Source of the DNA: Ceratodon purpureus
Lineage: Eukaryota; Streptophyta; Bryopsida; Pseudoditrichales; Ditrichaceae
Length of the DNA stretch: 64,000 nt
Direction: 5' to 3'
NCBI GenBank assembly: GCA_014871385.1
Contig: CM026423.1
Location: 17,659,690 to 17,723,689 of the forward strand
The position numbers and the translations under genes were made by a program. The notes below the pieces were generated by a model. That model did no database searches. It was not told the origin of the DNA and saw only the letters and a list, made by a program, of their open reading frames with translations. This document shows positions 10,491 to 41,062 of this stretch, piece by piece (position 1 is the stretch's first letter; every line of letters starts with the position of its first letter).

Positions 10491-10602
10491 AATCTCCTTG
10501 TTGATTAAATCAACATTTGTATTGATTCAAATATATTCAAAGTATACTTTTGAAGCTTAAGAAAACTATTTATATGTATTTCAATTTCTAGATTATTATG
10601 GG

Positions 10603-12540: not shown

Positions 12541-12547
12541 ATATACT

Positions 12548-14475: not shown

Positions 14476-15115
14476 ATAATCACCCAATTGGGCAATTTGT
14501 CTGTTAAAGCAATTAAACGTTTGCCTGTCATGGATTCAAAATACTCACTTGATCTCAAATTATGGTCTAGAACCCGTAGTTTTACAACTGTACATCCTAC
14601 AGTTCAGCGAAACAGGTTGTTCCCTTTCCTTCTAACTTGGTGATACGTTCTTACACTTGGAGCCTTGTGAAGGGATTCAATTTTTAGCATTTGAGATGTG
14701 CATTGATCCCTTCGATGTGCGACTTTGAACACTGAGCAGATGCTCATTTGAGCAGGGCTTTAGTGCTTAGGTAGACATCTTGAACTTGATTCTTCAACAA
14801 TGAATTTGCTTGCGGTTGTTGCGAGTTGTCAATGAAGTTGTTCCATAGCCCACAATCATCTTTTCCTTCTTAAGAAATTAGATGATTACATCCTTTTATA
14901 CATGGAACAGAGTTACGAGACATGAGCTTGCTTGTACAATTGATGCTTCTGCAACGGGTGTTTGTGTTTCATTTTGAGCATCACACGTTCAGTTTGTACC
15001 TTTCAAGGCGGAATTCATCGGCAACTGTTTCTGATTTGTGACAACTTGGCGAGGTATTCTGTGTGCAGTGGGGTGGCCATGGATCCTTCACTGTTGTATA
15101 TGGCTTGATGTCTCA
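14476..15115. other. Intergenic: 3' region of TMEM205-like gene
   Basis: No further gene seen. 14825-15040 has a diverged copy at 31650-32030, where a miniature transposon interrupts it, so the third segmental copy reaches further to the left than the second. Confidence 0.6.
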
Positions 15116-15974
15116 AATGATCGCTTGTCTTAGGTGCAAAGAAATTGGTAAGCCCTGCATCGTTTTAGTCCTTCGAGTACTATTACATATCCTTGTTGGT
15201 CTAAATTACTGGTAATTCATAGCCTTATTGCAGATCTAACGGAGTTGATAAGGTAGGCAGTGCATTACTCTCAATGATTTCAACTTTCTCGGTTTTACAA
15301 ATATGATGTATGGTCCAGTTTAATGCTTTGGCAAGATTATAATTCCACATAGATTAAAATTGCCAAGAGATTATTCAATCTGATCTTATGCTTGAGCGGT
15401 CTAGTCTTACATCAAAATCCTTTAATGAATACTGCGTTTCATGCCTTGGTAAATGATGTTGAATGATGTGATCGAATTTGTGAAGTTTAATTAATATGTC
15501 TTGTCATGTGTCAAAAGCAGAGGTTAGCTAGGGAGAGTTCAATAGAAGTCCATTATCCCACAGTCTACTTCTCAATAATGAAAGCTATATATATATAGAG
15601 ACTCAGTTCCATCACAATTAACGCATGGACAATAGTGAATGGATCAAAGATACAAATGGGTCTTACACCTACTCCATGGTTGGTTGCCCACGACTGGTTG
15701 TCCATTCAGTCTATGCTACTTCTATTCAATTCCGTAGATTATGTGCATGAAACCCATTATTATGAGGGAATGTCGTAGTTGCTTAAGATTATTCAAGGAT
15801 GAGACCATCTTCCTGTGCTGGTTTGATATTAACTCCTGCATATATTCAAACAAAAGGAGCTCTATACTAGCCTCAAGCACTTCACCACATACAAAGGACT
15901 ATCTTGCAAAGGATTCATCTCCACTGTCCAGAGACACGGGAAATTTGGTGTCCCTAGAGTTGCGTTTGCATAGT

Positions 15975-16990
15975 TCATCCGGCACTTGTAATTTCTCCAT
16001 CATTAGGGACGTTGAATTCTGACTGCATTTCATATTCCCTTGCATCGACGGGAGAATTCAGAGTTTCTGTCCGGCCATCCACATCCATGCGACGGTTTGG
16101 TACCTGAAGTCCTTCCTCAAGATCTGGATTAAAAGGAACATATGCATGCCAAGTGCATGCTGTAATAAGTCAACTTGGATGCAGCTTTCAGCCTCGAAAT
16201 TGTTACATAACAGGGCATAGCAATTGAGCCAAACAATCATTAGACACACCAGCATGAAGTCTGAATTAGTACGAGATGGACAGTACAGACTCTGCCGATG
16301 CAATATTGTGGCACGTAATTATGTTGGGCAAACCTTGTGCAACACGAACGTTGCTGATGAGGTGATTTTCAGTGGACACTTGATTATCTGTCTCAGGTTG
16401 GCCTTCTCCAAATCCAGTGAAGCTGTTGCCCAAACTTGCTGCCGTGTGCTGGATGATGCCCCAGATGCATGCTCCCAGGAGAAACACTCCCAGCGGCACC
16501 ACCGTAATTTGCACCCACTGTAGAACCGTCTCCTGGTTCCTGAAATCATCACATGTATACCTCTGATGAGTCTACCTTTGAGAGGAAGGGTAGCATATGC
16601 TATGCATCAGGGAACTCTTAACTCACAGTAGTCATTCGACCAGAGTTACTCCTCTTCTATACCACTGCAACCCTTATGCGACCTGATAAGACTGGACCTA
16701 GATATTTCTACAGCAGTAGCTTCCGATTGGTTTTGAAAGAAAATGAGCTGGGTCACAAAACATTCTTCTACTGCAACTTAAAATATGGAGCATTCAGGTA
16801 TTCGATTCCGTTGAACTCATGTAGCAATTGCAGGCTGCACGGTGTTGGAAAAAAACAAATTCATTTATAGTACAGAGTTAACTCACCTGGCGGTGGCTCC
16901 CATTGAATCATTGGAACTGACAGATAACATTGCTCTTCCTGTGGCCGCTGACTCCACCACCGAGCCCGCCATGTAGAGCATCAGGAACAT
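15975..16990 (-). CDS. Small single-pass membrane protein, family member A (164 aa), unknown function
   Basis: Exons 16990-16887, 16539-16334 and 16159-15975 have GT-AG borders (donors GTGAG and GTTTG) and join in frame to 164 aa. Residues 1-14 form a short hydrophobic N-terminus (MFLMLYMAGSVVES), probably a signal peptide. A Ser/Asn-rich stretch follows, then one membrane span, about 43-64 (WVQITVVPLGVFLLGACIWG). The polar tail contains NPDLEEGLQVP and RRMDVDGRTE. Members B and C keep the same exon phases and these motifs, which supports the model. An AG at 17019-17020 suggests that the exon starts at 17018, behind a 5' UTR intron. No family was recognised. A type I plasma- or endomembrane protein with a cytosolic tail is inferred. 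Confidence 0.7.
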
Positions 16991-17399
16991 GATGTTGAAA
17001 GAAACTGGAGAAGATAATCTAGAGCAACAAACACAGATCAGCGCGGTCTCAGAGCTTCGTCTACGACTACGAGCCACATCAAGCAACTTAGTAATCTAAT
17101 CCACTGAGATGAAAGACGGTTATATCGATCGGATGCAACTCCAGATGATCCGCACATCCTCTCACAAAAATCATCAACTTTGTGGTCTCCCAGAGTGTAA
17201 GTTGGTGCTCGATCGTTAAATATCCTACAATAAGTGTGCAAAGTTTCTGGCGGTGAAAACAGAGGAGTACTATGATCAAGCCAGAGAAATCCGGCAAGCT
17301 GAGAGCCCGAGCGAGCGAGTGAGCCAGAGCAGCATTGAATTCAATGAAGCTTGTTGTAACATACAATCTCCTGGTCATGGACTCATGGTGATGGTGGTA

Positions 17400-18160
17400 A
17401 GAGCATGGGGGTTCTTATACTTGAACGCCCTGGCTGTGCCAACAGTCGGCAACAAAACCCCGCCATCGCCGACCCCCCACCAAAACCCGTCGCCACCTCC
17501 CAAACCCACCATCCTCTACCGCCGACGTACATCCATCCGCTAAAATCTACGCAAACACCATTAGAATCCGTCGCTTGTGGGTACACATCTTCATCAAAAT
17601 ACCCATCCTGGGATGCCGGGTGGGAAAATGCACCCGAGGATTAATTATGTTGGAAACCACTGGTCGGAGAGCCGGGAAGATGGGCGGGTGCCCGTGATTG
17701 CTGGCTGGCTGATGGGTTGTTAACTTGTTTTTGGCGATGTGTTCGTCAGTATTTAATGTGGTATTTAATGGGGCGACGCGTTCGTTACTATTAGACACAC
17801 ATCTACGTGTACCGGTATGCATAAGGTAAGTGTACCAATTGTCAACCATGACCAATTTACGACTGCTGGGCAAAATCTTCATTTTCTACTATAAATTTTT
17901 TGGTATCCTGAACATTTTGGGTGGAAATCTTCAATGGTTGTAAATTAGTACACTGCACCTTTTGCCTCCTTAAAATCCTAGTAATTTCAATTTTTGAGGA
18001 AAAATTCTGAAAATTTCTGTATAGACAAATACTTATCTTCCTACATTGGAAAAATTTCTACTACATCATGCTTTGAAAAATAACCTCCAAAGTTGCTTAA
18101 ATGGTTGGTTACTGGTACACTTACCTTAATCTAGTTCTCACTACTTGGCGGGGTGTTGCT
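17400..18160. other. Insertion-like stretch between gene A and its duplicated upstream flank
   Basis: Sequence present in copy A but not at the matching point of copy B. Proline-rich frames around 17405-17640 are not supported as genes. Nothing else recognised. Confidence 0.4.
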
Positions 18161-18429
18161 GCGGCACTTCTATTTCCTCTTGCAGTAAAGGTAACCTTAA
18201 AGCTTGTGTCCTAAAATAATAATAATCTAGTTCCCACAATTCATGTAGGATGGTGTCAATTTGTTCTTAGCTTCACACAACTTCATGAAGGAGTTGCTTG
18301 TGTCAAGTCGCCTAGTAATTAAGAAAGGCAATAGCTATGACTTTGCCCTTCGTCCTTAGTGCAGTTCTCTTGAAAGCAGCTATTGGGGAGATTTTGGACT
18401 TAACCCAGCTAATATCCTCACTTCTCCAA

Positions 18430-19104
18430 AGTTATTTAGTAGAATTAATTGATATATGGATGATAATTTGACAATATTTGGGTGATACTCTTGTGATACT
18501 TATGTGATACATGGATGATTTTTTTGTTTTTCAATTGATAAATATCTTATGATTTTTAACTTTTACCGGCTGGATGTCAGATATGTCTATCGGAGGGTTG
18601 GTTTGTAATTTGCTGCTAGTTGTTCCGGTGCATTGTTTGAAAGGTTTAAAGTTGCATAGTATTAGTTGTAGGTTTCACAGAAATTACTCACAAACTTGCC
18701 TAAAATTGGAATTCATGATTCATTTTATTGTTGTAGCCATAGCAAATGAGGATAACATTATTGTAGATGTCAAAGTGAAGCAAGTGTGCCCTACCAAAGT
18801 CAAAATCACTTTTTGGATAAATTTAATACACCGTCACCATTATCATTACTAATGCTTAGTGTTAGTACAAATTCTTCCTATAATGATGTTAGAATTCCAT
18901 CTAATTTATCCTAACTTCATGAATTCTTCGAAACTATTACAAATAGCTTTTAGTGTCCACTAATACGTAATAATACATTATTATAGTGGTAAAAAACACA
19001 CTTGGCCTTAACAAAGCGCACCTTGACCTTTTTTATGATTAATCATTAGTAGTTTTTTTTTATTGAAATTTTACTTTTTGATTTATTAATAAGATAAGTT
19101 GTTT

Positions 19105-19166
<62 letters not shown>

Positions 19167-20830
19167 CATTATTCTATGATCAATGTAAAAAATCATCATT
19201 AATTAGAAAATCTAATATATTTTATTTAAGATATTTTAAATTAATGATTCTCTTATAATCATTTAAATAAGGTTATGGTTTACATATAAGAAAATGTTTT
19301 ATATGATTTGCATAGAAAATCAAAACCTTACTTATAGAATCACAACCTCACTTAAATGTTGAAGACTTAAATAAAAGATTTCACAGTTGATATGGATGAT
19401 ATCCATCTTTGTTAGTTTACTACTTTTAAAATATAGTATAAGATTATTGTTAGGCATGTGGGATTTGACCTGTAAAAATAAGGTTGATCAAGACATGTTT
19501 TAACCCCTAACTATCCTTAAAATCCAAAATGGTTTTTTGCAATTTTTGGAAGCCTAGATGGGGAGGTTAAAAATAATATTTTTTTTCAAGACTTTTACTG
19601 GATGCTCCCTTTACAGTAAAGTCTATGTAATAATAATTTTCAAGCCCAATTCCAAGTTTAGAACCTTCATCTAAAAACTTTAGGTTTCAAGTCCAAAACG
19701 GGGAGTCTAAATTAGGTCTTTTTAAAAAAACAAAAACTGAAATTTGTTCATAATTAAATCACTACTCAAATTCCATAGTGACCAAAGTCAAAAAGTTTAC
19801 CAATTTTGCAAGGGCAGCCTCCAAAACTTACAAAGACAAGCTTTAAAATTTTTAATAATTTTTGAATTTTTCCTTTAAAAATTCATCAAAATTCAAGATT
19901 TTTGATTTTTTTTAAAATTGTTTTCTTTGAAAACCACAAATTTATAAAGGTACCTACTCACCGTTCACTTTTTCTTTAGCTCACAAATTGTTTTTGTAAT
20001 GCATGTTTTACTATTTTGACAATTTTATACCTTCTTATAGAAAGTAATTTGCATGAAGATCTAAAAAGCGTTTTGAGTCCCTAAAATTTTGCATGAGCAT
20101 ACCTAACCTAGTTAGCTACATGGAAAAAAATCTAACCAAAATGTTTGAAGTAATAATCATCAAGTCTCCCTTTGGCCCATTTGCATCATGCCTCTCGCCC
20201 AAGGCCAAAAAAAATATTTGCTGAAACTTTGAACACTACGATCTCACTAATGAAAAACATCCAACGGTTGAAATTTTGATCAGTTCTACCAAGTAGGTTA
20301 CTAAGGTTAGGTACAAGATCTTACAGTGGAAATTCCAAAAATAGTTTAAAAATTTATTTCATATCCTCCGGAGGGCATAGTGGTAAAAATCGCAATTTTG
20401 AGTATTCAAGCTCTCAAAAACACAAGGAAATTTAGAGGTCAAAAGACATCTTTTAAGACATTGGTATAAAATATCTCAATATTTTAGAAATTAAATCGTA
20501 ACTAAGAGCAATAGTTCTAATGAAGAATATAATTCCATATTATAATTGTGAATCTAATAATTATTGTGATTCAAAATTATTCTAGATAGTGGTATCTTCA
20601 TATAAAGCTTTGCAACATTTGTTGGATATCTTCTAAAATAAATATGATTCCTATTATTATTACTATGATTAATAATAAGTTAGTTATTGTTGTCATAATA
20701 ACAATAAATGTTTGCTGTTCTTATGTCCCATAGTATCTGCAAGTTAGTGTGTAATTGTAAATTTTGGTGCTCAAGATCAACAACGATTCAGTTCAACCTC
20801 AAATAAGTCATGAACTCCACCTCCTAAACA
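18430..20830. other. AT-rich repeat-bearing intergenic DNA
   Basis: No gene seen. Contains an (AT)n microsatellite at about 19110-19164 and, from 19500, a possible degenerate TTAA element (TTAACCCCTAACTATCC at its left side, right end not found). A short open stretch at 18574-18852 has no recognisable family. Confidence 0.5.
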
Positions 20831-20834
20831 AACA

Positions 20835-21800
20835 CTGAACAGTGAGGGCGGATTTACACCAAGGGGCCGGGCCAATTCAGTAAGCTTAAAGGCTAAAATC
20901 CTCCCTTGTGATTGGCTAAGAAGCTGAAATTGGCCCCAACCCCTTTACACTTCGAGGCCGGGCCAATTTGGTGGTATGAATATTTTAATCAAGAAATGCA
21001 AGTTCTGACATGGCCGAGCTCGGTGAATTGGGTGCACCGAGAATGGAAGGCCAATTCCTGGCCTCGGGGCCAATGTCGGATCTGAATAAAAAAAAAAAAT
21101 TATATTAAAAAACTCTTTCCCTTCATCCAATCACAGTCATTGCCGGAGCCACGGGAATTGAGCCCACCACCTCCCAGCCACGAGGATAGAGCCCATAGTG
21201 GGTTCATCCACCATGTCCTTCCTTCCTCCTCCATATCAACCATCTATGATTCATTGTTTTTGTATCCAAATCATAGCTGGAATTTTAATTTCATGCACCA
21301 TTTGGAGGCCAAATGAAGTCCAAATCCTCCTTTTTATTATGTTTTTGGTCTATGTATTAGATGTGCAAGTGCAGATACGTCGTTGAGGCTATATTCTTGT
21401 TTGATTGCGGTGATTCTTAGACTTTTAATCAAACCTTCCAATAAAGCATTATTTCCATAACATTTTGCACGACCATGAAGAACACAAAAACCTTTAAAAT
21501 CTTATGTTTTCATTCATCCATCTTGTACAAATGGCAATGAAAAGAGAGAGAAGGGCTGAAGTTCTCTAGATTTATTGGATTGGCCCGGCATCTTGGCCCC
21601 AAGGCCATTACATATGGGAAAATCGGCCCCCGTTATAATCTTATTACAATGGAGACTTGAAGCCGGCCCCAACTCAAAAATGGGCTGAAATTTCAAGCAA
21701 TCAGCCCCAAGGAAAATTGGCCCGACTTCTATATGTAAATCGGCTCTGAATGCCCCTAAAAAGGAACCAAAGTTTTTCTTCATCTCCGTCAGCACATGCG
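20835..21800. repeat. GGCC-rich repeated sequence, probable old non-autonomous element
   Basis: Several GGCCGGGCCAATT and TTGGCCCC motifs occur in both orientations at 20860-21070 and 21585-21725 in otherwise AT-rich DNA, as in the inverted subterminal parts of a DNA transposon. Clear ends and target duplications were not found. Confidence 0.35.
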
Positions 21801-22949
21801 TAGACTCCGCTGAGAGCTGACAAGTCCATCTGAAACAAAGATGCGACTACGTTGTATTTCCAGTGGCACATTATTTTGTTCTCCTCACTCAATACATTTT
21901 TTATATTTTTTTTTGCGCAAATGAACAGATTTCATTGCAAAGAATAGGTACATCCCTCATCAGACCAAAGTCCAGGGAGAAAAGGCGGACTTCTAAACAA
22001 AATTCGCACTACATCCAGTTAGGTGTTAGTCCTCTTGGGGGGACGAGGTTCCAAGTAACTTTGAGTCTAAATACCGTAGGCTACTAGCAGCTTCGTACAA
22101 AAATAATTCTAAAATAGAAAACAAAAAATTTAGAAAATTATGAAGTCAAAAAATCGAAATTAGAATAAATTAGTTTTTGCAATATTTTGTTGGTTCTAAG
22201 TCATTTCAGGTCATTTTTACTAATTTTTGGCTAAAAAACAAAAATTAATAAATTCATTTTGGAGGGGTCGAACATCATTTTTTCAAAATAATTAAATATT
22301 CGACGGAGCATGGTCGAAGTAGGCTACGGTACACTTTTTAACAATTACAACAGCCCACATAATTTATTTTGAAACAAATCAAACGAAATTCCATACGGCC
22401 CACATAATTAAGTGCCACACTTCATAAGTACTGGAGTGCCAACTTGGCTACTTCATGGAAGCAGAGATGCAACGGGCTACCCAAAACCATCACTTCACCA
22501 AAAGCCAGCACCATCCACGAAATCTAGACTTTAGAAAGCAAGTGTACACCAGCTCTAGATACTGACAGCTTTGACTACAGTGCTGGTTTTACGTATGCAG
22601 AAAGCCGAGGCAGTGGCGTGGCTTGATATCAAGAAGCCGTTGTAGGATCCACCACTTATTCATAATCCATCCCACCACAATATTCCTTTCGGACTTGGGC
22701 CTACCTTGATATGATTCGTCTGACTTGGTCTGGCCAGGTGCAAATGCATGATATGAAACCTGAAACCGGACTTCGGAAATCGAGAGACCGGCGCAATGTA
22801 GCTTCGAAGACACCCTCCGCTACAGGGCGTCCCAGGGCGTCCTCGATGATCCGTTGCGACTGTGATAACTTGTGCTCAATCCCGGTCTGCGTGGTTTGCA
22901 ATAGGCAAATTCATTTGTTACAACATTGGAATCGGACCAGGGTGGAATG

Positions 22950-23997
22950 GTTTTTCTTTTCTTTTCGAAATTAGGGTTTTTTAGGGTTTTGCTTTACGAC
23001 GGTGAAGATGGAGAAGCTAACGTATGCAGAGTCTTTACGGGCGAAGATGGAAAACGCGCTGGTGCAGCCCGTGCAAGCTCAATCAACGGGAGAACGAAGC
23101 CTCGATCAGAAGGATGCAGTAGAGTCTGGATTGGTAACAACGGTAACCAGAATGGGATTCACCCCATTGTCACCACGCCTGATGAATCACGCCCAGCAGG
23201 GTATTCTCGCAGCTCCACCGGCTTCCTCATCTACAACACGGTACTGGAGGTTAAAGTGGATCAAGAGGTCGTAGCAAAGGAGACGGTGCGTCTGCAACGA
23301 CACGTTGTGGTGGCGTACTTCGTGGGGGGAGACAAGCGCAAGTGATCCTCAATCAACGGATTACTGCAATGCTGGCTGAGATCTGCGAATGGGTGGGTCT
23401 TGGGCGAGATTTAGGTCAAGGTTTTTTTCAGGTACTTACTGGCCTGTTTGTGGCAAAGCAGAAGCTGCTCATGCGCACCCCACACTGGTCACGATGGGGG
23501 ACCTATATCCTACAGACATGGGCGACCAGATTTAATGCAAGTCATCCCATGCGCCTGAAAGTTACGACATGGGTTACGCTTTGTGGCAGTCCAGGAGAAT
23601 TCCTAGGGGTGGCGAAGGATATCGCAGGGGGTTTAGGCGACTGCTTGGTAGTGACAAGAGCAATGCGTTTGTCGCTGACCAGCCATTTTCTATGGCACTT
23701 CAATCGGGTGCATGGTGGACGACGCAATTGTCTGTCACCAATGAGAGCACAAAGGAGAACATCATCATATCAAAAGACTATTGCAACCTGCCTATCCGAC
23801 GCCGAATGTGTCACTCCACCGAGCACCTGATCAAGGAGTGCGCGAGACTCAAACGCCCATTACTATTCGGAGCAGCAGGGGACGGTGACAGTGCCGCGAT
23901 GCGGACAAACTCAGGTGTTCGAGAGACCGAACTGAAGGAACAAATTTCGCGCCTTCACACATCTCCCCCCCTCCCCGCTGCCTTTGGCCGGGCATAA
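22950..23997 (+). pseudogene. LINE ORF1-like (DUF4283 / zinc-knuckle) remnant
   Basis: Plus-strand frames read VTTWVTLCGSPGEFLGVAKD, then SNAFVADQPFSMALQSGAWW, then RRRMCHSTEHLIKECARL. This order (DUF4283-like fold, then a CX2C-like HX4C knuckle) is that of plant non-LTR retrotransposon ORF1 proteins. DUF4283 also occurs in host proteins and other retroelements, so the assignment is not certain. The reading frame is broken in at least one place and no reverse transcriptase follows. The upstream part (MEKLTYAESLRAKMEN) may be the original N-terminus at 23008. The remnant stops just before the segmental duplication at 24126. Confidence 0.55.
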
Positions 23998-24923
23998 TCC
24001 CACTTTTCTTCTTGAGAGTGATGAATCATCAGGACATTCGGACAAGGTAGGACGTGAAGGTGACACTTCGAGCAAATCACGAAACCATTACTCAAATGGC
24101 TTGTCGCGGGACACCCCAAGTACAAATGATCGCTTGTCTCAGGTGCAAAGAAATTGGTAAGCCCTGCATAGTTTAGGCCTTCGAGTACTATTACATATCC
24201 TTGTTGGTCTAAATTACTGGTAATTAATAGCCTTATTGCAGATCTAATGGAGCTGATAAGGTTGGCAGTGCATTACTCTCAATGATTTCAACATTCTCAG
24301 TTTTACAAATATGATGTATGGTCCAGTTTAATGCTTTGGCAAGATCATAATTCCTCATAGATTGAAATTTGCCATGAGATCATTCAATCTGATCTCATGC
24401 TTGAGCGGTCTAGTCTTACAGTAAAATCCTTTAATGAATACTGCGTTTCATGCCTTGATGAATGATGTTCAATGTGTTGATCGAATTTGTGAAGTTGAAT
24501 ACGGTATGTGTCAAAAGCAGAGGTTAGCTAGGGAGAGTTCAATAGAAGTCCATTATCCCAGTCAACTTCTCAATAATGAAAGCTATATAGAGACTCAGTT
24601 CCATCACAATTAACGCATGGACAATAGTGAATGGTTCAAAGATACAAATGGGTCTTACACCTACTCCATGGTTGCCCACGACTGGTTGTCCATTCAGTCT
24701 ATGCTACTTCTGTTCAATTCCATGAAACCCATTATTATGAGGGAATGTCGTAGTTGCTTAAGATTATTCAAGGATGAGACCATCTTCCTGTGCTGGTTTG
24801 ATATTAACTCCTGCATATATTCAAACAAAAAGCGCTCTAGCCTCGAGTACTTGACCATTGACAAAGAACCATCTTGCGAATGATTCATCTCCACTGTCCT
24901 GATACACGAGAAATTTGGAGTCC

Positions 24924-26366
24924 CTAAAGCTGCGTTTGCATAGTTCTTCCGGCACTTGTGATTCCTTCATTGTTAGAGACGTTGAATTCTGGCTGCATTC
25001 CATATTCCCTTGCATCGATGGGAGAATTCAGAGTTTCTGTCCGGCCATCCACATCCATGCGACGGTTTGGTACCTGAAGTCCTTCCTCCAGATCTGGATT
25101 AAAAGAAACAATTGCATGCCATGACGTGCATGCCGTAATAAGTTAACTTGGATGCAGCTTTCAGCCTCAAAATTGTTACATAACAGGGCATAGCAATTGA
25201 GCCAAACAATCATTAGACACACCAGCATGAAGTCCGAACGAGATGGACAGTACAGACACTACCGGTGCATTATAGCACGGAAATATGTTGGGCAAACCTT
25301 GTGCAACACGAACGTTGCTGATGAGGTGATTTTCAGTGGACACTTGATTATCTGTCTCAGGTTGGCCTTCTCCAAATCCAGTGAAGCTGTTGCCCAAACT
25401 TGCTGCCGTGTGCTGGATGATGCCCCAGATGCATGCTCCCAGGAGAAACACTCCCAGCGGCACCACCGTGATTTGCACCCACTGTAGAACCGTCTCTTGG
25501 TTCCTGACAGCATCACATGTATACCTCTGATGAGTCTACCTGAGAGGTTGCATTAAAAGGGTAGCATACGCTATGCATCAGGAAACTCTTAACTCACATT
25601 AAGGTTGAATCACCCATAACCACCAAAATAAGGGTTTTTGCTTATTTGTGGCAGTTTTATTTTTAGGGAGTAATTTTCTTGGATCGAAAGATAGTTTTTT
25701 TACATAACGCGTATTTTTCCATAATTTAAGTCCTCATAGATTAATAGATACAAATTTTCAAAGTGAAAAGTAGTGTTTTCCTATAACCCACCTGTAGGTT
25801 TCACTAGAAACCACTGCAGTCAATATGTTAAACCACCACACAATTTATTCCAAATTCTACAAATTTATTCCAAACCCTGGCTTGCCATTGCTTTGCTTGT
25901 TTCATGGGTGCTACAGTGGAATGGTGGTGATGGGTTCTAACAAATGGTGGTGCAAGGAAAGTCTACAGTTTGGCCAAGTGTTATGTGGTGGTAATGGGTA
26001 CATCAACCTTAGTCATTCAACCAGAGTTACTCTTCTTCTACACCACTGCAACCCTTATGCGACCTGATAAGACTGGACCTCTAAACATTTCTACAGTAGC
26101 ATATGATTGGTTTTGAAAGAAAATGAGCTGTGTCGCAAAACATTTTTCTACTGCATTTTAAAATATGGAGCATTGTATCCGATTCCCTTAAACTCATGTA
26201 GCAATTGCAGGCTGCACGGTGTTGGAAAAAAGCAAATTCATTTATGGTACAGAGTTACTCACCTGGCGGTAGCTCCCATTGAATCATTGGAATTGACAGA
26301 CAATATTGCTCTTCCTGTGGCCGCTGACTCCACCACCGAGCCCGCCATGTAGAGCATCAGGAACAT
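24924..26366 (-). CDS. Small single-pass membrane protein, family member B (159 aa), unknown function
   Basis: Exons 26366-26263, 25503-25298 and 25093-24924 join in frame to 159 aa. The N-terminus and membrane span are nearly identical to member A. Exon 3 appears to start at a different AG (25094-25095), because the site used in A is changed here, yet the phase is kept and the tail still reads DLEEGLQVPNRRMDVDGRTE. The C-terminus is longer than in A, ending AGRTMQTQL, like C. Intron 1 holds a 408-bp TA-flanked miniature transposon absent from A. Reading through the exon 2 donor would give a different, shorter tail, so transcript evidence is needed to fix the C-terminus. Confidence 0.65.
25602..26009. 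mobile_element. TA-target miniature transposon (Tc1/mariner-like MITE) in intron of gene B
   Basis: Inverted ends AGGTTGAATCACCCATAACC and the complement of AGGTTGATGTACCCATTACC are flanked by TA (25600-25601, 26010-26011). Copy A has the empty site, a single TA at 16629-16630, which proves insertion after the A/B duplication. No coding capacity. Confidence 0.8.
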
Positions 26367-27235
26367 GATGTCGAAAGAAATTGGAGGAGATGATCTAAAG
26401 CCACAAACACAGAGCGCGCGGTCTCTCAGAGCTTCGTCTACGACTACACTTGAAACTTCGCTGCAGTGGCCTAATCCCTGATACTAGTCTGGTTGGTGAA
26501 AAAGAGGAGTACTATGATCAAGCAAGAGAATTCGACCAGCTGAGAGCCCGAGCGAGCGAGCCAGAGCAGGATTGAATTCAATGAATTCAGCTTGTAGTGA
26601 CTTACACTCTCCTGGTCATGGACTCATGGTGATGGTGGTGACCAGGGAGGGAGTGGGATACTTATACATGTTCGCCCTGGCTAAGCCCATCCATATGCAT
26701 CCTGTTGCAGTTACTGTATCTCCCGCCAGAGTACCTCCAAGATACACTTGCAGTAAGGTAACCCACTGTGTCCAAAAATAATAATAATAATCTAGTTCTC
26801 GCAATTCATGATGGATGGTGCCGACAGATCATGAAGGATAGTTCCCACAATTCATGAAGGAGTCACTGTTCGGGAAGTTTCTAATACAATCCAGCTATTA
26901 TCCCCTTTTCGATAAAAGCATTCGGTAATTTTGTATGATACCTACATGATACCTAGGTGATACCCCTGTGATACTTAGGTAATATTTAAAATGCTTGTCG
27001 GAAAAAATCCTAACTCTTTCGAATTGAATCGGTAATTTGACAACTTCATTCGGCTGATTTACAACTGACTGCCGGATCTCCCCGATCATTGGAAGGAGTT
27101 GCTTGTGTCAAGTCGCCCATTAATTGAGAAAATCTCGCCCACAGCTACCGGGTACTGTATGACTCTGACCTTCGCCCCTTTGCCTAGGAGTGCAGATCTG
27201 TTGAAAGCTGCTATGGGGGAGATTTTGGACTAATC

Positions 27236-29125
27236 CCTTAAACGCGAGCAGAGCCGTTTTGTAACCTTTGGATGACTGAAAAGGCTTGTTTCTCAATTAA
27301 AAAAAAAAAAAAAGATTTTCATCCATTTCTATCCATGCACCTCCTTGTTACTCTTCTACACAACACATGCATGGAGATATCCACCATGGGAGTTAATTTG
27401 GGCCCTTCATTGGAAAATAAATAGTAAAAATAGATTTTCATCTACTTTCTTTTGAATCATTTGACATTTTCTACAAAAATTCAATTTAAACCATGAAGAT
27501 GGCATTTTTTTTTTTTTAATATGACCTTAATTAACCCCAAAAGGACAATAGTCCTAGAATGGGTTTTTTTAGAATTCGGGCATGTACGTGTGACTTCAAT
27601 TAAAGTCAAGATTTTTTGAAACTTTTTGTGAATATAGGCCATAACAAGAACTTTGAGGGAATCTTTTTTTTTTCTTTTCAATTGGACATTTATAAAAATA
27701 GTTATGGTACCTGAAGTGGAAAAAGATGCTCAAAGGGCAATTTGGGCAGCCATGCTAAATATATCAATTACCTCTGAAAATATTTCTATAAATACTTCAT
27801 GATGTCATCTTTGAGGTTATTAAAAAAAAACGACTTTGAGTGCATAATGTTCACTTTACAAAATATCAAAGTTTTCTCACCGTTTCGGGCAGTGTACTAA
27901 AAAAACTTCTTTTTTCCTTCATAAAAGTTAGAAAAAGTATTATTTTAGGTTTTTTCTTTTTTTTAGTGAAAGGATGGACATCAATCTTTACTTTGACTGT
28001 TTGGATTGAGAGTTTGTTAAATAATAAAATTTCTAGGAAAGAAAGAAGATTTAGCATTCTTGTGTATTCAACATAATAAAAATGTTATTTTCAACATGCT
28101 ACACTAGACTTTTGAGAGTAATGTTTTTAATACAATTAGGTAACTTAGTCTTCTTTGACATGCATCAAAACCCCTACAATCTATAATGCAAAAAACATAA
28201 GAGAAGAAAAGTTAGAGTGTGTCAACCTAGTCAAAAATCTTGTCATAAAAGTTTGTTTTCAAATTTCAATTGCTATAATCTTCTAATCTTTACGGCCAAT
28301 TATATTAAAAAATTTTGAACTGTCTATTACAATAATCTAGTTGAAGATCTTACGGTTAGAATTAGAAAACAAATTGTTTTTTAGTCATTCATGCTTTTTA
28401 CATTGAAAATGGCAGTTTTGGAGTGTTTTTTGATGAAACATAGTCAAGGAACTTTAGGGGTTAAGAAATTGAAGTTTATCAAGTCCACTTTTAACTCTAT
28501 CTTGAATTTTTGGAATTTTTTTAAATATGAGTATTTTACAGTAATTGCAAGTTCAACACTTATTATCATGGAAGTACCTTTTACTAGTTTTAGAGACGCT
28601 GATGATTTTCATCCACCATTATCTACTCCAATGTAAGTCAAACCTATAGAAAAAAAATTGGAATTTTTAAGTTTTTTAATTAAAATATATAAGTCTTTAC
28701 AATATTTTGTTATTTCTAAGCCATTTGAGATCGTTTTTACTGATATTTTGCTAAATTAAATTTGATAAATTGAGTTTTGGAAAAACAAACCTTATTTTTT
28801 ATTTTTCTTAAAATTTGTTTGCTAGGTGGCAAACCTCCTATGGTGTCATAGTAACAATGTATATTGTATATACTATAGTCTATAGCAACAAATGTATAAT
28901 AATTTTTTTATCTGTATTTTTTTTTGTATACTTAATTTTGTATAAATTAATGTTATTTGGAATAGATTCTATCAAACACATGTACCTTTAATCCTTTTCA
29001 ATGTTATAAATCATGATTTTATAATATATGTTCAACAAATATCTATAGTAAAGTCCTCTCTCCTTCTATACATTTGGCTTTTAAAGAATAATATTAATAG
29101 TAATAATAATAATGATAATAATCTA
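27236..29125. repeat. AT-rich dispersed repeat, copy with empty TTAA site
   Basis: No gene seen. 27800-28480 is homologous to 37340-38340 (shared TCACCGTTTC, CCTAGTC, GACATGCA segments). The TTAA at 28461-28464 is the unoccupied counterpart of the element at 37965-38314. Confidence 0.7.
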
Positions 29126-29126
29126 T

Positions 29127-29865
29127 GAGAAGGAGCCCAATAAGTGGACCAAAAAAGTGCTTAGCTATTTGTAACTTTCATCCCTTTTACAAAAATCGCA
29201 CAGAAGTGATGGAAAGATGTAATTGAAGTCAATTTTTTTGCTAATATAGGTTATTAACTTGTTTTCCTACAAACTTAGAAAAGTTTTGTGCAAAGTAGAC
29301 ACTTTGAAGTTATTGTATGAAGGCTTTAAATCCAAGCAAAGTGAATGCAGTCATTTGAAGAAGTGACTAGAAAAGAATCAAAAACTATCTAAAAATCACT
29401 TTTGATGGAGTGGTGTCCTGTATGTGTTTGAGAGGTATTCTAAAATAGTCATTTCATATACTCATTAAATGATTAGGATTCCAAAAGTACTGCAAGGATG
29501 TTTTTTAAGAGAGTCACTTATGCGGTACTTTTGTGAGCTTTTTTTCACCAAAAAATGTTTTTTAAATTGGAAAAAACATCCTCTAAAGACAATAGAAGGC
29601 ACCAAGTGAAGAAATTCAGACTTTGAAAATTCTCATTTTTATGATTTAGAACTAGTTGTCAAATTAAATTTCAATTAAAGATTTTTTTTTTTATGAAGAT
29701 GCGTGTAAGATACCTTATGACACCCTAGAGAGTGATTAAAATGCTCAAAAACTACACCAAAATGCTCAAAATCACCTTTGAGCTTTGAAAAACAGCACGC
29801 TTCATATTCACTTCTTAGTGATCACATGTTGCACTTTGTAGTCTACTTTATTGTGATCTCCCCCC
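29127..29865. mobile_element. Non-autonomous TIR element, about 740 bp
   Basis: Ends resemble GGGGGAGAGCACAATAAAGT, inverted at the two sides. Read in reverse complement, the interior matches the nested element at 33058-33812 (shared TTTTGAGCATTTTGGTGTAG). No open frame. Target duplication unclear. Confidence 0.65.
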
Positions 29866-29867
29866 TA

Positions 29868-30289
29868 AGGTAGTAATACCATAAACCGATAGAATAAGGA
29901 GTTTTGATCAATTTGAACTATCATTTTCTCAGGGAATTATTGTAAGTACATAGACAAATTGAAAACAGAATGATAGAAGTTGTTTTCATAATTTTCTGAT
30001 GAAAATACAATTTCTTAGAAATATTTTAGCTGAAAAGTTTGTCCACCCCATTTCTTGTGTTGTAGACTTCATAAAGTCTGCTACTGGCATATGCACTATT
30101 CCAAAAGCAACTCTACCCAAAACCGATATAAGATCTCAACGCTTGTAAGGTGCATCAACGCTTCTCAAGGCTTGTCAAGGTATATACTTATTGTACCAAA
30201 AATCATGGATCATGATTCTTGTTGGTCAGTTTCAGAACAAGTCTACGACACAGGTTGTGGGGGGGTATTGGTTTATGGTATTACTACCT
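29868..30289. mobile_element. TA-target TIR element, 422 bp
   Basis: A 20-bp inverted repeat, AGGTAGTAATACCATAAACC, sits at both ends and is flanked by TA (29866-29867, 30290-30291). It abuts the preceding element. No transposase. Tc1/mariner-like by its TA duplication. Confidence 0.65.
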
Positions 30290-30744
30290 TATACTATCAA
30301 AAGAAAATGTTTGCTTGTCCTTCCGTTTATTGGTTACAAGTCAATTCTACAAAAATTACAAATGAAACCTAATTTGAGTGTCTTTTCAAAACATACAATC
30401 TTTTTCATTCAATCTTTTCTAACGTATGTTTTAAACAATCCTCTTATTACTTGCTTTTATATATCCACACAATGCATGTTATAAATGCATTCATAAAATC
30501 TTTTTAAAAAATCTTGAAAAACTTAAAAAAGAAATAATTACTTGAAATATTATATATTTTGAATCTAAAATTATTAGTCAATGCAAAAATATTTTGATAA
30601 ACTTTTTATATGTTTTGTATATATTTTCACAAAAAGTACATTTTAACATAATTTAAAAAAAAAATTCAAATCACAAAATATTTTGTTTTAAATAAAAAAA
30701 TTTAAAAAATTACATTATAATGTGAATTAATTGGAATACTTAAT

Positions 30745-31640
30745 TGTTTTGTTAATGCAAAATACCTTAATAGAGTGAATGTATAAGTTTTGTACTATGT
30801 TGTTTTACGATGACTTATATGAATGAATATGCATTGGTGCCATAGACGCCAATGATTTGTAGTGGCCTATAGGCTACTACATAATCTAATAACAATAAAA
30901 AAAATAGTTTTATCATTATTATTATGGTTATTTTATCATATCTATTAATGTGCAATTTAACCTCTAAAGTCAAAAGGCCTCAAAACTATGAGAAACCCTC
31001 AAAATTGACCTTTTCAATATAAGGTGTAAGTTTTCAAGTTTTGATGTATTTTGAGGAAAAATAACTGTAGGATCTAGTATCTTTCTTGTTCCTAAGTGGG
31101 TTAGGAATATGTCCATGTACGTTTTACCCTCATACATCCTATAAAACCTAAAGAAATGCTTGATTTTTCACATAGAAGTATGCTGAAATTCAAGTAGAAA
31201 GGCCAGTCTTTGATAGTAAGAAAGGCATATGGAGAAATATTGGATTAAAAATACAAGAGGTGAGATCATGCCTTAAAAGACTATTTACATGTTCAAAAAA
31301 CAAAAATTGAGAAAAAGTGAAATCATAATTTTTGGTGAATTTTTGAAGTTTTAGTGATCTAATTAATTTTGGGAAGATTTTGAGGATGAATGAGCATGAA
31401 CTGTAGTTCTGGTAAGATTTCAGCATGCCCAAATAATATTTTTAAACTTTGACTGCAAATATCTCCTTAAGTATGAGGAATTTTAAAGCATAATGGTCTT
31501 GTTAGAAAGGTATGGAAAAACTCCATGTTTTGCAAAAAAAATGTAATTCTATAAAATCTATATTTTATAACTAAGAGCGTGACCAAAATCTAATCATGAG
31601 ATAAAAGACTGTGCATAATCGCATTTTTTGAATAATATAA
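30745..31640. repeat. Dispersed repeat copies, AT-rich
   Basis: 30745-30890 is an inverted copy of the repeat at 5200-5290 and 10975-11160. 30955-31640 resembles the interior of the TTAA element at 5365-6200 (matching GCTGAAATTCA and AAGGCC segments), and its left side reads TTAACCTCTAAAG, so it may be an old member of that family. No gene seen. Confidence 0.45.
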
Positions 31641-31806
31641 AGAATAACAATTCTTGTTAATGTTGTTCCATAGTCTACAATTATATTTTCATCCTCAAGA
31701 AACTAGAGGGATAAAACCTTTTTGGTGTTGGAACAGAGTTACAAGAGGACGACTTGTGCCTGCTGTCAAAGTTGATTTTCCCGTATCGGGTGTTTGTGTA
31801 ACATTG

Positions 31807-31954
31807 GGTGTGTTTACATCTCCTGCCAGTAGGAGCAGGGAGCCTACTCCTGGTTTGGCTCCCTACTGAATTAGTAGGCAAAAAGCCAAATTCAGCAGGG
31901 AGCCAAACTTGGAGTAGGCTCCCTGCGCCTGCCAGCAGGAAATGTAAACGGGCC
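31807..31954. mobile_element. Fold-back miniature transposon, 148 bp
   Basis: Ends GGTGTGTTTACATCTCCTGC and the complement of GGCCCGTTTACATTTCCTGC. The whole element is nearly self-complementary (GGGAGCCTACTCC against GGAGTAGGCTCCC). The equivalent site in copy A (near 14990) is empty. Related halves occur at 52460-52535 and 52585-52672. Confidence 0.7.
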
Positions 31955-32013
31955 TATTGGTTCTCAGCATCAAACGTTCAGTTTGGACTTTTCAAGGCAA
32001 AACTCATTGGCAA

Positions 32014-32065
32014 CTGTTTGTTTGTTTGTTTTGTTTGTTTGTTTGTTTGTTTGTTTTTGTTTTTT

Positions 32066-32108
<43 letters not shown>
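32014..32108 (+). repeat. (GTTT)n and poly-T microsatellite
   Basis: GTTT repeats run into an uninterrupted T tract. Possibly the reverse-orientation tail of a retroposed sequence, but no body was recognised. Confidence 0.8.
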
Positions 32109-32109
<1 letters not shown>

Positions 32110-32966
32110 TGGGAACATACAACCTCATTGCGGGATCGCAGCTATGGACTGACTTTGACACAATTGGCAAGTGTTTTTCATTTAAGACAATCTGGCTAGG
32201 TAATGTATTCTATAGTGGGTGGCTCAGAAACCGCCCAAATTTTAGATTGGTAGGCTCGGCGGGGAGCTATAAAAGGAATCCAATTTTGGAAGATGGATAA
32301 AGTGTATAGAAAAGTGGACCAATTGGAATAATTAATTTTGAATTGATACTGAATTAGTTATGAATTTTGAAAGGGGACTCAAAAACCGCTCAGTCTAAAT
32401 GTACACCACAAGTACATAGAAATTTGAAATTCAAAGCTACAATGTACCTCCTACTTGGACAGGTCTAGACTGCAGTTTGAGGTGCCGCGCGGGTTTTGAG
32501 CCACATACCCTAACTTATGTGCAATGGGATCTTCACTTTTGTGTATGGTCTGATGTCAATCGCTTGTCTCAGGTGTAGACATATTTAATCTAGCAAACTT
32601 GACCAAAAGATTCAACACCATTCAATAAGGCATGAAACACTATGTTCATCAAAGGGTTTTGATGTAAGCTATGTAAAGACTTAATTCTATCACAAGTGAC
32701 ACATAGAAACTAGTCAACAATTCATATTCATTTATTGAAAGATAGTTGTTTTTTATTTTTATTTTTTATTTTTTATTTTTATTACAAACGGGTTTCAAAC
32801 CTACTCTATTGATGATTGGTTGTCTAGTGATTCTATGCTACTTCTATCAATTCAGTCAGCAAGATTTAGTGTGTGAAATCCACTATTATGAGCAAATATC
32901 CTAGCTGCTTAAGATTATTCAAGGAATTAGATCATCTTTTGTGCTTGCTTGATAACTTCCTGTGCA

Positions 32967-33890
32967 TTAAACCGGGAGTCAGGGTATATAAAGCGGGGAC
33001 ACATTCTACACCATTTGGAACCCTAATCCTCTGAGCTCTATGCAAATCACATTAATAGGGGGAGAGCACAATAAAGTGGACCACAAAGTGCAAAATGTGA
33101 CCACCAACAAGTGAATATGAAGTGTGCTGTTTTTTAAGGCTCAAAGCTGATTTTGAGCATTTTGGTGTAGTTTTTGAGCATTTTAGTCACTTTCTAGGGT
33201 GTCATAAGGTATCTTATATACATCTTCATAAAAAAAATATCTTCAATTGAAACTTAATTTGACCACTAGTTCTAATTCATGAAAATGAACTTTTCCAAAG
33301 TCTTAATTTATTCATTTGGAGCCATCTATTGTCTTTAGAGGATGTTTTTTTCAATTTGAAAAACAATGTTCGGTGAAAAAAAACGCACAAAAAGTACCGT
33401 CGAAGTGACCCTCTTAAAAAGTATCCTTGCGGTACTTTTGGAACCCTAAACCAATCAATGAGTATATTAATTGACTATTTTAGAATACTTCTTAAACATA
33501 TAGAGTGCACCGCGAAATTAAAAGTGATTTTGGACAAAACCCTAAACCGTTATGTTCACTTTTCCAAATGACGACCATTCACTTTGCCTGACTTTGACGT
33601 CTCCGTTTTCCATTGTAAACTCAATATCTTTTCTCGCAACTTTGGAAAGTTGAAGAAGATCAAGTCTACTTTCCGTATCCCAAACTTAATTTTGCATCAA
33701 CATAACGTAAATCCCACTTTCTCTAGTCTTTACAGAAGGGGCTGAAATTGGAAAAAAGATAAGCACTTTTGTGGTTCACTTTATTGTGGTTCACTTTATT
33801 GTGCTTCCCCCCAATAGTCAAGTTTCATTGACTCCAAATATAGAATTGCCTAGGTAACCTCGGTAGTGAGTGCGGGGACTACCGGTTTAT
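32967..33890. mobile_element. TATA-bearing TTAA-ended repeat, interrupted by a nested element
   Basis: Begins TTAAACCGGGAG and ends ACCGGTTTA. A TATATAAAG box lies at 32985. It is the same element as at 35632-35816, split here by the insertion at 33058-33812. Confidence 0.65.
33058..33812. mobile_element. Nested TIR element, 755 bp
   Basis: Starts GGGGGAGAGCACAATAAAGT and ends with the complement of GGGGGGAAGCACAATAAAGT. It is flanked by AATAG-like sequence on both sides and lies inside the TATA-bearing repeat. Homologous to 29127-29865 in inverse orientation. Confidence 0.7.
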
Positions 33891-34220
33891 CAAGTAGTTC
33901 TTGATCCAATGGTCATGGAATAGTGAAAGTTACTCTATGCGGTAAGTCAAAATAGTTTGATTCCCATATGATAAAAGAAAGAGAAGGAGAGAAAGAGCAC
34001 AAATCCGTAAAGAAAAAGGCAGGAGATAAAATAAAGAGGTTATGAGGATTCAAAGAATTAAAATTTAAAATGAAAACAAGCTATCTCCACTTTACATACA
34101 CAGACACCTAGTTTAATATTAAACTACAAGCGCTCAAGCCTCAAGCACCTACTGTAAACAAAGAATTATCTTGCTAAGTATTCACCACCACTGTCCTGAA
34201 ACCCGGCAAATCGGACGCCT

Positions 34221-35106
34221 CTAAGGCTGCGTTTGCACAGGTATTCCGGAACTTGAAATTTCTCCACCAGCAGGAATGTTGGATTCTATCCGGCCATCTG
34301 CATCCATGAGACGGTGTGGTAATTGAAGTCCTTCCTCCAGATCTGGATTAAAAGGAACATCTGCATGCCGTAGTAAGTCAACTTAGATGCAGCTTTCAGC
34401 TCCGAAATAATCATATAACAGAACATAGCAAATGAGCCAAACAATCATTAGACACACCAGCTTGAGTACCGGAGGAGAGTACCGACACTGCCGAAAATAA
34501 TTGTAGCACGAAAATATACTGGGCCCAATTTGCAAACCTTGTGCATTATGAACGTTGCTGATGAGGTAATTTTCAGTGGACACTTGATTATCTGTCTCAG
34601 ATGAACCTCCTCCAAATTCATTACAGTTGTTGCCCAAATTTGCTGCTGTGTTCTGGATGATGCCCCAGATGCAGGCTCCCAGGAGAAACACTCCCAGCGG
34701 CACCACCGTGATTTGCACCCACTGTGTAACGGGCGTCTCTTGGTTCCTAACAACCAACACATGTAAACCACCGAAACTATGAAATTATCCTTTTGCTACC
34801 TAATCAAACTTCGTATATTACTCAACTTCAGAAGCTTGCTATACTTGAACGACTCATGACCCGTTACGCACAGCGTTCTATCACCGCAACTTAAAATATG
34901 GGACAGTATACTTAAATCCTCCTCAAATATTCATTACTTCAATTACACTACACAGACAATGAAAAGGTCGTCACGACGGGAGTTACGTACATGGTGGTCT
35001 CGCTCATTGAGAAGTTAGAATTAGTGGATACCATTGCGCTTCCCATGGTTGTTGACTCCACAGCCGAGCCCGCCATGGACAGCAACAAGGGCATAATGAA
35101 AACCAT
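34221..35106 (-). CDS. Small single-pass membrane protein, family member C (154 aa), unknown function
   Basis: Exons 35106-34991, 34746-34538 and 34360-34221 with GT-AG borders join in frame to 154 aa. The N-terminus MVFIMPLLLSMAGSAVES is a clearer signal peptide than in A and B. The membrane span WVQITVVPLGVFLLGACIWG is unchanged, and the tail keeps VPFNPDLEEGLQLP and MDADGRIE. It lacks about 15 residues of the A/B tail and ends IPVQTQP. Despite greater divergence, all three exons stay open and in phase, which argues for selection and for the shared model. An AG just upstream (near 35119) suggests a preceding 5' UTR intron. Confidence 0.7.
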
Positions 35107-35829: not shown

Positions 35830-37330
35830 TCTCCAACACTGGTGTAGGACACATGTTCTGGTTTCTCTTCAAGATGGCTACGCCCACTGAGTTCATGCCC
35901 GGCCGCGATGTGGCCTCTTTCAGTGACTTAGTTCCAGTTTTTGGTAGGTATTTTTTCAGGTTATTATTAGGTATTTGAAAATCTACAAAAATCTCGCCGA
36001 GCTGGCTTCCGGCCTCGGTTCCCACAGCGGTGTATTTTTTCATCTTTTCAATGGAATTTTGCCATTTGACTCAAAAACAAATTTAAAAAAATACGGATAC
36101 AACATTATTTTTCTATTTTTTAATATTTTTTTGAGTCAAATGTTGTGCAAAGATCCGTTGCCAATGACATACAACATAATTTTCAACTCCACTTGTCATA
36201 ATTGAAAATTTTCGTCCTTGGAGGGTCCTGCTCCATGCTACGCATATTGGCAGGAAATGTGAATGAGGTTAATGATACTAGAAACTAAGAACAGAATATA
36301 AAATGGAGCTTAAAATATGTTTACTATAATTGTGATTATTAAAGAAGTTTTATTGGTTGCCATAATTGTTTATTTTTAAGAGAAAGAAACTACGGTCTCC
36401 AGGGGAGACCGAAGTGAATTAAGTGTCTGTTTGATCTACCCTGTTGTGTTTGGCAAATTATTAATTTCAAATGTAAGTTTTCTGACTACGATATTTTTTT
36501 ATGACATAACACTGACTACTATCAATATAAATACATGTGATAAATATAATAGATTACTTAACACGGACCTTTGAAAAAAAAAATACAAATTCAAAGTAGT
36601 AACTTTTGAAGTAAACAAAAGATGGAAAGTGTCTTACACATAAAATAAAATCAAAATTGGCATAAGAAAATATAGAAATCTATAGTGTCTAATTAATATA
36701 TATTAATGCTTTGGCAAGGCATAATTTTTCTTTCAAATTGATGTTATAATTGTTTTTAGAAAATTTATTTGATTGAACTACCTATACATTGAAAGTTTAT
36801 GTTAATTTGTATGTTTAAAATTTTATTGTTATCAACACTATGTAGATTTCATTGAAATTGTTTTTAAGAACATTTTAAAATGTGATTCCTTCCAATAGAA
36901 CATGAATCATAAAAAGGATAGTATAAGGTTGAAGGTTTTTTGAAAAACTTAAATATAATAGATTCTGCAGTGGCCTATTGGCGACCGCAAATCATTAGTG
37001 GTAGAGGCACCTATACATAATCATTTCTATAATTGATTATAAAAATATCACGCCATTTTGCATTGACAAATTATTAATAGCTTCCGAGAAATTTACATTA
37101 TAAGAGCAATATTTAATTTCTAATTTTTATGAATATTTTTTACTTGAAGAAACTCCATGATTAAGAAAAAAACATGAATGAAAATTAAAATGTATGTATC
37201 TTGAAAAGTATAAACAAAAATATATAAAATTATAAATATGTGCCAATTTGGTATGAAATTTTTAAAATTTTGGGCATGTAGCTGTGATGCCAATTTCATA
37301 TATTTGGTTACTTCTATAATTACTTAATAT
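35830..37330. other. AT-rich intergenic DNA
   Basis: A short GC-richer stretch at 35868-35945 could encode MATPTEFMPGRDVASFSDLV up to a GTAGG donor, but has no partner exon. 36955-37080 is another dispersed repeat copy (GTGGCCTATTGGCGACCGC). Nothing else recognised. Confidence 0.5.
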
Positions 37331-37339
37331 TTTTATCTT

Positions 37340-38340
37340 TGAGATTTTCCAAAAGAAACTTCTTTGAGTATAAAAGGTTCACTTCACAAAATATTAAAGT
37401 TTTTTCACCGTTTCAGGCAGTTTACTTAAAGTTAGAAAATTTGTTTTTGAGATTTTTCCTTTTTTTCACCTAAAAGATGGACATCAATCTTTACTTTGAA
37501 TGTTTGAATTGGGACTTTATTAAATAATAGAATTTCTAGGAAAGAAATAAGATTTAGCATTCTTGTGTATTCAACCTAATAAGAATATTGTTTTCAATAT
37601 GCTACAGTTGTCTTTTGTGTGTAATGTTTTTATTAAATTAGCTAACTTAGTCTTCTTTGTCATGCACGAAAACCTCCAAAATCCATAATGCAAAAACCAA
37701 AGAATAAAAAGTTAGAGTTTGTCAACCTAGTTAAACATTGTGTAAAAAAAGTTTGTTTTCAAATTTCAATTGCTATTATCTTCTAATCTCTACTGTCGAT
37801 TATGATGAAATTTTTTGAGCGATCTAATACAACAATCTTGTTGAAAATTTCACGGTTATAATTAGAAAATAATGATGTTTTAGTCATTCATGCTTTTTAC
37901 ATTAGAAATGGCAATTTTGAAGCGTTTTTCTAGTGAAACATAGTGAAGGAACTTTAGAGGTTAACCCTTAAACGTCAGACCCAGCCGGAGGGGCTGGGTT
38001 TAAAGGAATAATTGGAGACAGAAGTTTCATTTCTCAACCAAATGAAGCGAGACTTGTTGCGTTGGAAAGCTATTGAAAAAGCGATCTAGATTCCAAATTT
38101 TCGCTCCATTTGATAGATTGTGGAATCGTTGGTAAGCAATCAAAGTTATCAGATTGAACAAGTTTTGAGGTTGGGGCAGCTGAAGTTGAGTTGTGCTCCA
38201 ATGGTACAGTGCTACAGTGCGGCGCTACAGTGCACTGCAGAGCCATTTTTGGGGGAAAAAATATTTAGATTCGGTCCGGGCTGCCCACCCAAGACCTAAA
38301 ATGACGTTTAAGGGTTAAGATTTGCAAGATTTTGAAAAGA
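37340..38340. repeat. AT-rich dispersed repeat, occupied copy
   Basis: Homologous to 27800-28480 in the same orientation and interrupted by the TTAA element at 37965-38314. Confidence 0.7.
37965..38314. mobile_element. TTAA-target miniature transposon (piggyBac-like), 350 bp
   Basis: A perfect 13-bp inverted repeat, CCCTTAAACGTCA, is flanked by TTAA on both sides (37961-37964, 38315-38318). The empty site GG-TTAA-GA is preserved at 28459-28466. Just inside the left end is a CCCAGCC/GGCTGGG hairpin. CCCT tips plus TTAA duplication fit piggyBac. Non-autonomous. Confidence 0.85.
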
Positions 38341-40930: not shown

Positions 40931-41062
40931 ATGTGCATTATGAACGTTGCTGATGAGGAGATTTTCAATGGACACTTGAATACATGTCTCAGGTGGACGT
41001 CCTCCAAATCCGGTGAAGCGGTTCCTTCAACTTGCTCTTGTAATCTGGATGATGCACTAAAT
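40931..41062 (-). pseudogene. Exon 2 fragment of the small membrane protein family (member D)
   Basis: Matches the end of exon 2 of members A-C on the minus strand, from the CCTCATCAGCAACGTTCATA region back through the DNQVSTEN-encoding part. The membrane span, exon 1 and exon 3 are missing. A relic of a fourth copy. Confidence 0.65.

Follow-up and report, generated by a model that had tools for sequence, protein, structure and literature searches.

A small family of candidate single-pass membrane proteins in two gene clusters of Ceratodon purpureus

Two clusters of a small gene family

The 64,000-nucleotide stretch of Ceratodon purpureus DNA discussed here (the window; assembly GCA_014871385.1, contig CM026423.1, below C3, positions 17659690-17723689) carries on its minus strand three related loci, A, B, and C, about 9 kb apart. 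On balance, the comparisons somewhat favor reading A, B, and C as a tandem group within a small gene family whose products would be type I single-pass membrane proteins, ~130 to 165 residues long, with the membrane helix as the working part. On this reading, a second, better-constrained cluster of the family lies on contig C4. The two-cluster family is very probably real; it is ordinary in kind, no model for it was found in the libraries searched, and it may be confined to a single lineage.

The 20-residue membrane span WVQITVVPLGVFLLGACIWG turns up unchanged in all three loci in a motif scan. Alignment of the loci yields three-exon models that are open in every copy; the introns are in phases 2 and 1, and GT-AG splice sites are intact throughout. 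In the main, these results uphold the preliminary description of this DNA, which had reported three minus-strand loci at this spacing, three exons each in the same phases, and a constant span. In copy A, coding exon 1 (16887-16990), which encodes a short signal-peptide-like stretch and the outer part, ends in phase 2 at the donor GTGAGT and aligns without gaps to exon 1 of B and C. Exon 2 (16334-16539), encoding the membrane span and the first part of the tail, ends in phase 1, and exon 3 (15975-16123) encodes the DLEEGLQ tail up to an early stop. The corresponding exons of copy B lie at 26263-26366, 25298-25503, and 24924-25093; its exon 2 is identical to that of A at 204 of 206 bases, without any amino-acid change. 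Exon 1 of copy C occupies 34991-35106 if the upstream ATG is used and begins at 35094 with the second ATG. Exon 2 of this copy (34538-34746) differs in length by one in-frame 3-base indel, and its exon 3 (34221-34342) is 48 bases shorter than that of B, again in frame. The early stop in A results from a point change 7 codons ahead of the end common to B and C; apart from this stop, no frame-breaking change is found in the three copies. Intron 2 of copy C was also considered as coding sequence and was set aside because of its frame-breaking indels.

The window's own assembly (362,488,568 bases in 151 contigs) was searched for relatives; the search scores the best candidates only, so that all match counts are lower bounds. 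With exon 2 of copy A as the query, at least nine matches were obtained at E <= 0.001, comprising A, B, C, a fragment termed D, and five loci on C4. The latter lie at 7.44 to 7.74 Mb and show 53 to 58% identity over the span, with E-values from 1.1e-7 to 8.2e-5. The reciprocal search with exon 2 of L012, one of the C4 loci, at E <= 10 returned at least eight matches, namely the same five C4 loci together with A, B, and C, and, among the best candidates scored, no additional locus carrying the membrane exon. Exon 1 of L010 gave at least four matches, every one of them on C4. A local search of 7.43 to 7.63 Mb, the first 200 kb of the C4 region, found L009 and L013 and otherwise weak, short matches only. 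The five C4 models encode 133 to 164 amino acids, and all of them show phases 2 and 1 and the junction D/LEEG (slashes in motifs mark the exon boundary), an agreement with A, B, and C that is not fully independent, as the C4 splice sites were chosen by visual inspection, guided by the window copies. The split between the two clusters has 100% support in a tree built from nucleotides, and groupings within C4 have 42 to 60%. The possibility raised in the preliminary description that the proteins have no homologue elsewhere is thus refuted, within this genome only, by the five C4 relatives.

Two further observations concern the C4 loci. In L009 and L013, exon 3 has an early stop at the same codon, where L010 and L011 read through, and in both loci the frame past the stop stays open for ~28 more codons. 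Moreover, inspection by eye shows that a run of 21 bases within the membrane exon is identical in A, B, C, L009, and L010. The presence of such a run across distant clusters could be due to chance, to gene conversion, or to a small-RNA site.

Tail junction and protein layout

The place at which exon 3 begins determines both the length of the proteins and the first residues of the tail motif. A, B, and C have an acceptor, TTTTAATCCAG/AT, at corresponding positions, and a matching CAG/AC acceptor is present in all five C4 relatives. Most likely, judging from this alignment of splice sites, exon 3 starts at the common acceptor. With this acceptor shared by the window copies and matched in C4, the tail would begin D/LEEG(LQ), and the preceding "NP" would be intronic. 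Of the tail motif NPDLEEGLQ in the preliminary description, DLEEGLQ, which the copies have in common, stands, and the NP falls to the intron. The same choice bears on the protein lengths, previously given as 164, 159, and 154 amino acids. The value for B (159 amino acids) is retained, but A has 152 and C 144 amino acids. If copy C is read from the upstream ATG at 35106, a coordinate implied by the preliminary description, it has 148 amino acids and starts MVFIMPLLL. Judging from the lengths, the earlier values for A and C would fit upstream acceptors that are without counterpart in the other copies and that add 12 and 6 codons, respectively.

In all eight proteins the span follows the pattern W(V/L)xITxVPLGVxLxGxCxxGxI. 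There are 21 invariant columns over the eight sequences; 13 are located between the W of the span and the I at its inner end, five form DLEEG, and three are in the outer stretch. The best 19-residue window, near VPLG, has a mean hydropathy of 1.75 to 2.35 in all eight proteins, each of which has this single span after the N-terminus. All eight also start with a hydrophobic stretch, a candidate signal peptide (11-residue mean hydropathy 1.99 to 3.37). It is strong in four of the five C4 copies, strongest in L012 (3.37), weaker in L013 (2.28), and 1.99 in A and B. In all five C4 copies, the 20 residues that follow the span include four or five Lys/Arg, which is what a cytosolic tail would show, and the tail carries a net charge of -4 to -11 in all eight proteins.

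Coding status, duplication, and alternative explanations

Tests of indels, of substitution rates, and of local divergence together indicate that the family is coding. Interior exon indels are multiples of three in eight of eight cases, compared with 10 of 28 in introns (Fisher p = 0.0014), as counted in five pairs chosen from 28 possible, three of which include L010, over the first 62 bases only of C4 exon 3 and leaving out the unalignable intron 1 of A and C. For the five C4 copies, a codon model gives a ratio of nonsynonymous to synonymous substitution rates (omega, dN/dS) of 0.48, with twice the log-likelihood difference (2dlnL) at 18.4 and p = 2e-5; for all eight copies omega is 0.64 (p = 4e-4). 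Pairwise Nei-Gojobori ratios of L012 with L009, L010, and L011 are 0.39 to 0.43 (p from 2e-5 to 2e-4). These estimates indicate that the C4 cluster is under purifying selection; the window copies form the branch under weaker constraint. Taken alone, A, B, and C show constraint mainly in the membrane segment and weak signs of selection. Within exon 2, the part encoding the span has proportionally fewer differences than intron 2, both between A and C (6/94 vs 30/186 positions, p = 0.023) and between B and C (4/94 vs 32/184, p = 0.002). Exon 2 outside the span falls below intron 2 in A/B only (0/112, p = 0.0015).

Several results weigh against reading the window copies as constrained members of such a family. 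In a codon model of their own, A, B, and C have an omega of 0.92, not different from 1 (p = 0.76). Between the clusters omega is 0.62 to 1.01, with Fisher p < 0.05 in only three of 15 pairs, and some close pairs within C4 do not reach significance either (L009/L010, 0.56, p = 0.20; L009/L013, 0.58, p = 0.055). The span part of A and B is not significantly less diverged than their intron 2 (2/94 vs 15/201, p = 0.10), and exon 3 has diverged to the same degree as intron 2 in all three window pairs (Fisher p = 1, 0.74, and 0.43). Substitutions fall evenly over the three codon positions (23, 24, 23 in A/C; 27, 27, 24 in B/C), without a third-position excess. The same caution holds for the protein layout, in that the N-terminal stretches of A, B, and C are weaker than those of C4 (11-residue means 2.0-2.4 vs 2.3-3.4) and that these copies are without Lys/Arg in the 20 residues past the span, so that charge does not fix their topology. 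The earlier proposal of a single-pass protein, in which a putative signal peptide and a short outer part precede the span and an acidic tail follows it, is supported mainly via the C4 relatives.

The preliminary description had taken the still-open frame of copy C as suggesting selection, and had looked to a dN/dS well below 1 for support. The first idea is not supported by dN/dS in the window: the Nei-Gojobori ratios of 0.38 (AB), 0.65 (AC), and 0.78 (BC) are in no case significant (Fisher p = 0.07, 0.09, and 0.30), and the codon model agrees. The low ratio is found in the C4 cluster as a whole, not in A, B, and C. Nevertheless, the in-frame indels and the C4 relatives support coding status despite the dN/dS of the window copies.

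The history of the array bears on how these values are to be understood. In addition to the three open copies, the window holds a fourth, partial copy, D (minus strand, 40932-41062), a dead fragment of the tail half of exon 2 that was found in repeat searches and has an in-frame TGA. The genome search with exon 2 of A also matched it (E = 1.8e-5), and that slightly longer match takes in a TAG as well. To the triplicated gene described before, therefore, a dead fragment has to be added. The duplicated block around A (minus strand, 15114-17435) matches 24123-26682 around B in three pieces, with ~91% identity in two of them and 82% in the 5' piece. For 16640-17435, the 5' portion of the A unit, a genome search that passes over simple repeats and very common words returned only the array itself, with matches to A, to B, and to a short stretch of C. 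Upstream of B, an apparently noncoding segment (27781-28464) has an 81% match at 37309-37964 upstream of C, at nearly the same spacing. It is as expected for a part of the duplicated unit, and fits tandem duplication followed by insertions. As a candidate for a missing exon, the segment was judged not coding because of indels of many lengths.

A and B are the closest copies (intron 2 is 92.5% identical, in line with the blocks of ~91%), and C is more diverged. Its distance from A is uneven: identity is 70% in exon 1 (104 bases, gapless), 89% in exon 2, 84% in intron 2, and 82% in exon 3, with intron 1 unalignable (55%). The view that copy C is older than the A/B split is thus correct for its greater divergence, but C is not of one age. 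Because exon 1 is far more diverged from A than exon 2 or intron 2, the sequence suggests gene conversion, in which the 3' part of C would have been converted by an A/B-like copy, or else replacement of the 5' part.

These features also raise the possibility that the window copies are a decaying array of duplicates, related to a functional gene of the C4 type, in which most constraint has been lost, with the span kept similar by gene conversion among the copies. The omega of 0.92, the divergence of exon 3 to the level of intron 2, the early stop in A, the stop in D, and the uneven age of C (exon 1 vs intron 2) would all be accounted for. An array in decay would not be expected, however, to keep the frames of A, B, and C open with all coding indels in frame, to retain GT-AG sites in all three copies, to hold the span-coding part at a lower divergence than the intron in two of the three pairs, and to leave exon 2 of A and B without amino-acid change. 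We regard decay as possible, if rather unlikely.

It is improbable that a mobile element of the Helitron or Pack type captured parts of genes and multiplied them, leaving loci without a cellular role. The array is flanked by repeats, and a piece of a Pif1-type helicase (PF21530, E = 4.7e-13) with repeats around it lies at 9915-10526 on the minus strand; this piece is probably a Helitron remnant. However, the 5' part of the A unit occurs only in this array within 362 Mb (very common words skipped), and the membrane exon occurs only in the two clusters among the best candidates scored; no search aimed at element ends was made. Moreover, introns are retained with their phases intact, and the C4 copies are under selection. 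Least probable is that a conserved noncoding element, of RNA or DNA, has been mistaken for a gene, since the conservation of the span part at silent sites within A, B, and C and the 21-base run shared with L009 and L010 have to be set against span silent sites that differ more than amino-acid sites between the clusters (dS 0.48-1.65, dN 0.32-0.48), eight of eight exon indels in frame, the C4 omega of 0.48, and the lack of an Rfam match in the window at gathering thresholds. A tRNA scan of the window also came back empty.

Neighboring features, known proteins, and possible function

There are 213 stop-to-stop frames of at least 70 amino acids in the window, and a Pfam scan of copies A, B, and C and 17 other open reading frames gave clear matches only to DnaJ and to the Pif1-type helicase discussed above. 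The DnaJ-domain frame (PF00226, E = 5.4e-9) is at 1396-1650 on the minus strand. This gene may extend to 4327, and nearby minus-strand frames with hydrophobic segments (no Pfam match) may be exons of the same gene. Two Gly/Ala-rich frames on the plus strand, at 61759-62559 (267 amino acids) and 55471-55815 (115 amino acids), have no Pfam match. The former contains tandem repeats spaced 54 and 102 bases, and the DNA near the two frames matches at 74%. A tandem array with a unit of ~71 to 83 bases occupies 12534-13073.

For the family itself, Pfam gave no match for copies A and B and a value of only 0.24 for C. Over the eight members, the best Pfam E-value was 0.031, to an unrelated bacterial membrane protein. 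NCBIfam returned three weak matches, each to one of the eight members; the best (0.0083), to the myxosortase MrtP, was dismissed as hydrophobic-helix noise. In the PDB, the best E-values were 0.21 for copy A and 0.26 for the eight-member profile, to unrelated molecules. No relative was confirmed among prokaryote genome contigs (11 pattern matches) or viral contigs (58), none was found in plasmid DNA, and a literature search found no description of such a family. The earlier remark that no family with this layout came to attention is matched by Pfam, NCBIfam, and the PDB, in which no convincing match was found.

Lineage-restricted families of small membrane proteins (orphan gene families) exist in plants. 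The proteins described here resemble these in their short length, their signal-peptide-like start with one span, their tandem copies, and the lack of a Pfam match, and differ in that intron phases and junction motif are kept across two clusters. The type I layout and the short acidic tail are reminiscent of the span and tail of plant receptor-like proteins, but the outer part here has only ~25 to 30 residues, and Pfam recognizes neither a ligand domain in it nor a kinase domain. The receptor-like or adaptor role suggested in the preliminary description is a hypothesis. With AG-peptides and short arabinogalactan proteins the family shares short length and a presumed entry into the secretory pathway, and the C4 outer stretch has one or two Ser-Pro pairs. 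Here, however, a span and tail stand in place of the glycosylphosphatidylinositol signal, and A, B, and C are without Ser-Pro pairs in the outer stretch.

If A, B, and C form a tandem group within a constrained two-cluster family, the protein would enter the secretory pathway, where its first stretch would be cleaved, and the tail would face the cytosol. Its role would be that of a small membrane subunit, with the helix itself as the conserved part. The conservation pattern of the span and of DLEEG leads to three putative steps: the helix may pair with itself or with a partner protein via its Gly-rich face, the invariant Cys near the inner edge is a possible lipid-attachment site, and DLEEG may be a short docking or sorting motif. 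In the window branch, the helix would have been kept while the ends drifted, A was truncated by 7 codons, and D died. A bolder proposal, which we put forward tentatively and consider unlikely as it stands, is that of an undescribed family whose conserved working part is the transmembrane helix, with ends under almost no constraint, that is, a helix-only regulator of larger membrane proteins that was twice expanded in tandem.

If expressed, these genes would constitute a family without a library model, in which a near-frozen helix is set against drifting ends. This pattern would point to helix-helix contact as the function, and the contrast between helix and ends offers a clean mutational test. 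Otherwise, the two clusters would be a good example of a tandem array leaving selection while its sister cluster stays constrained.

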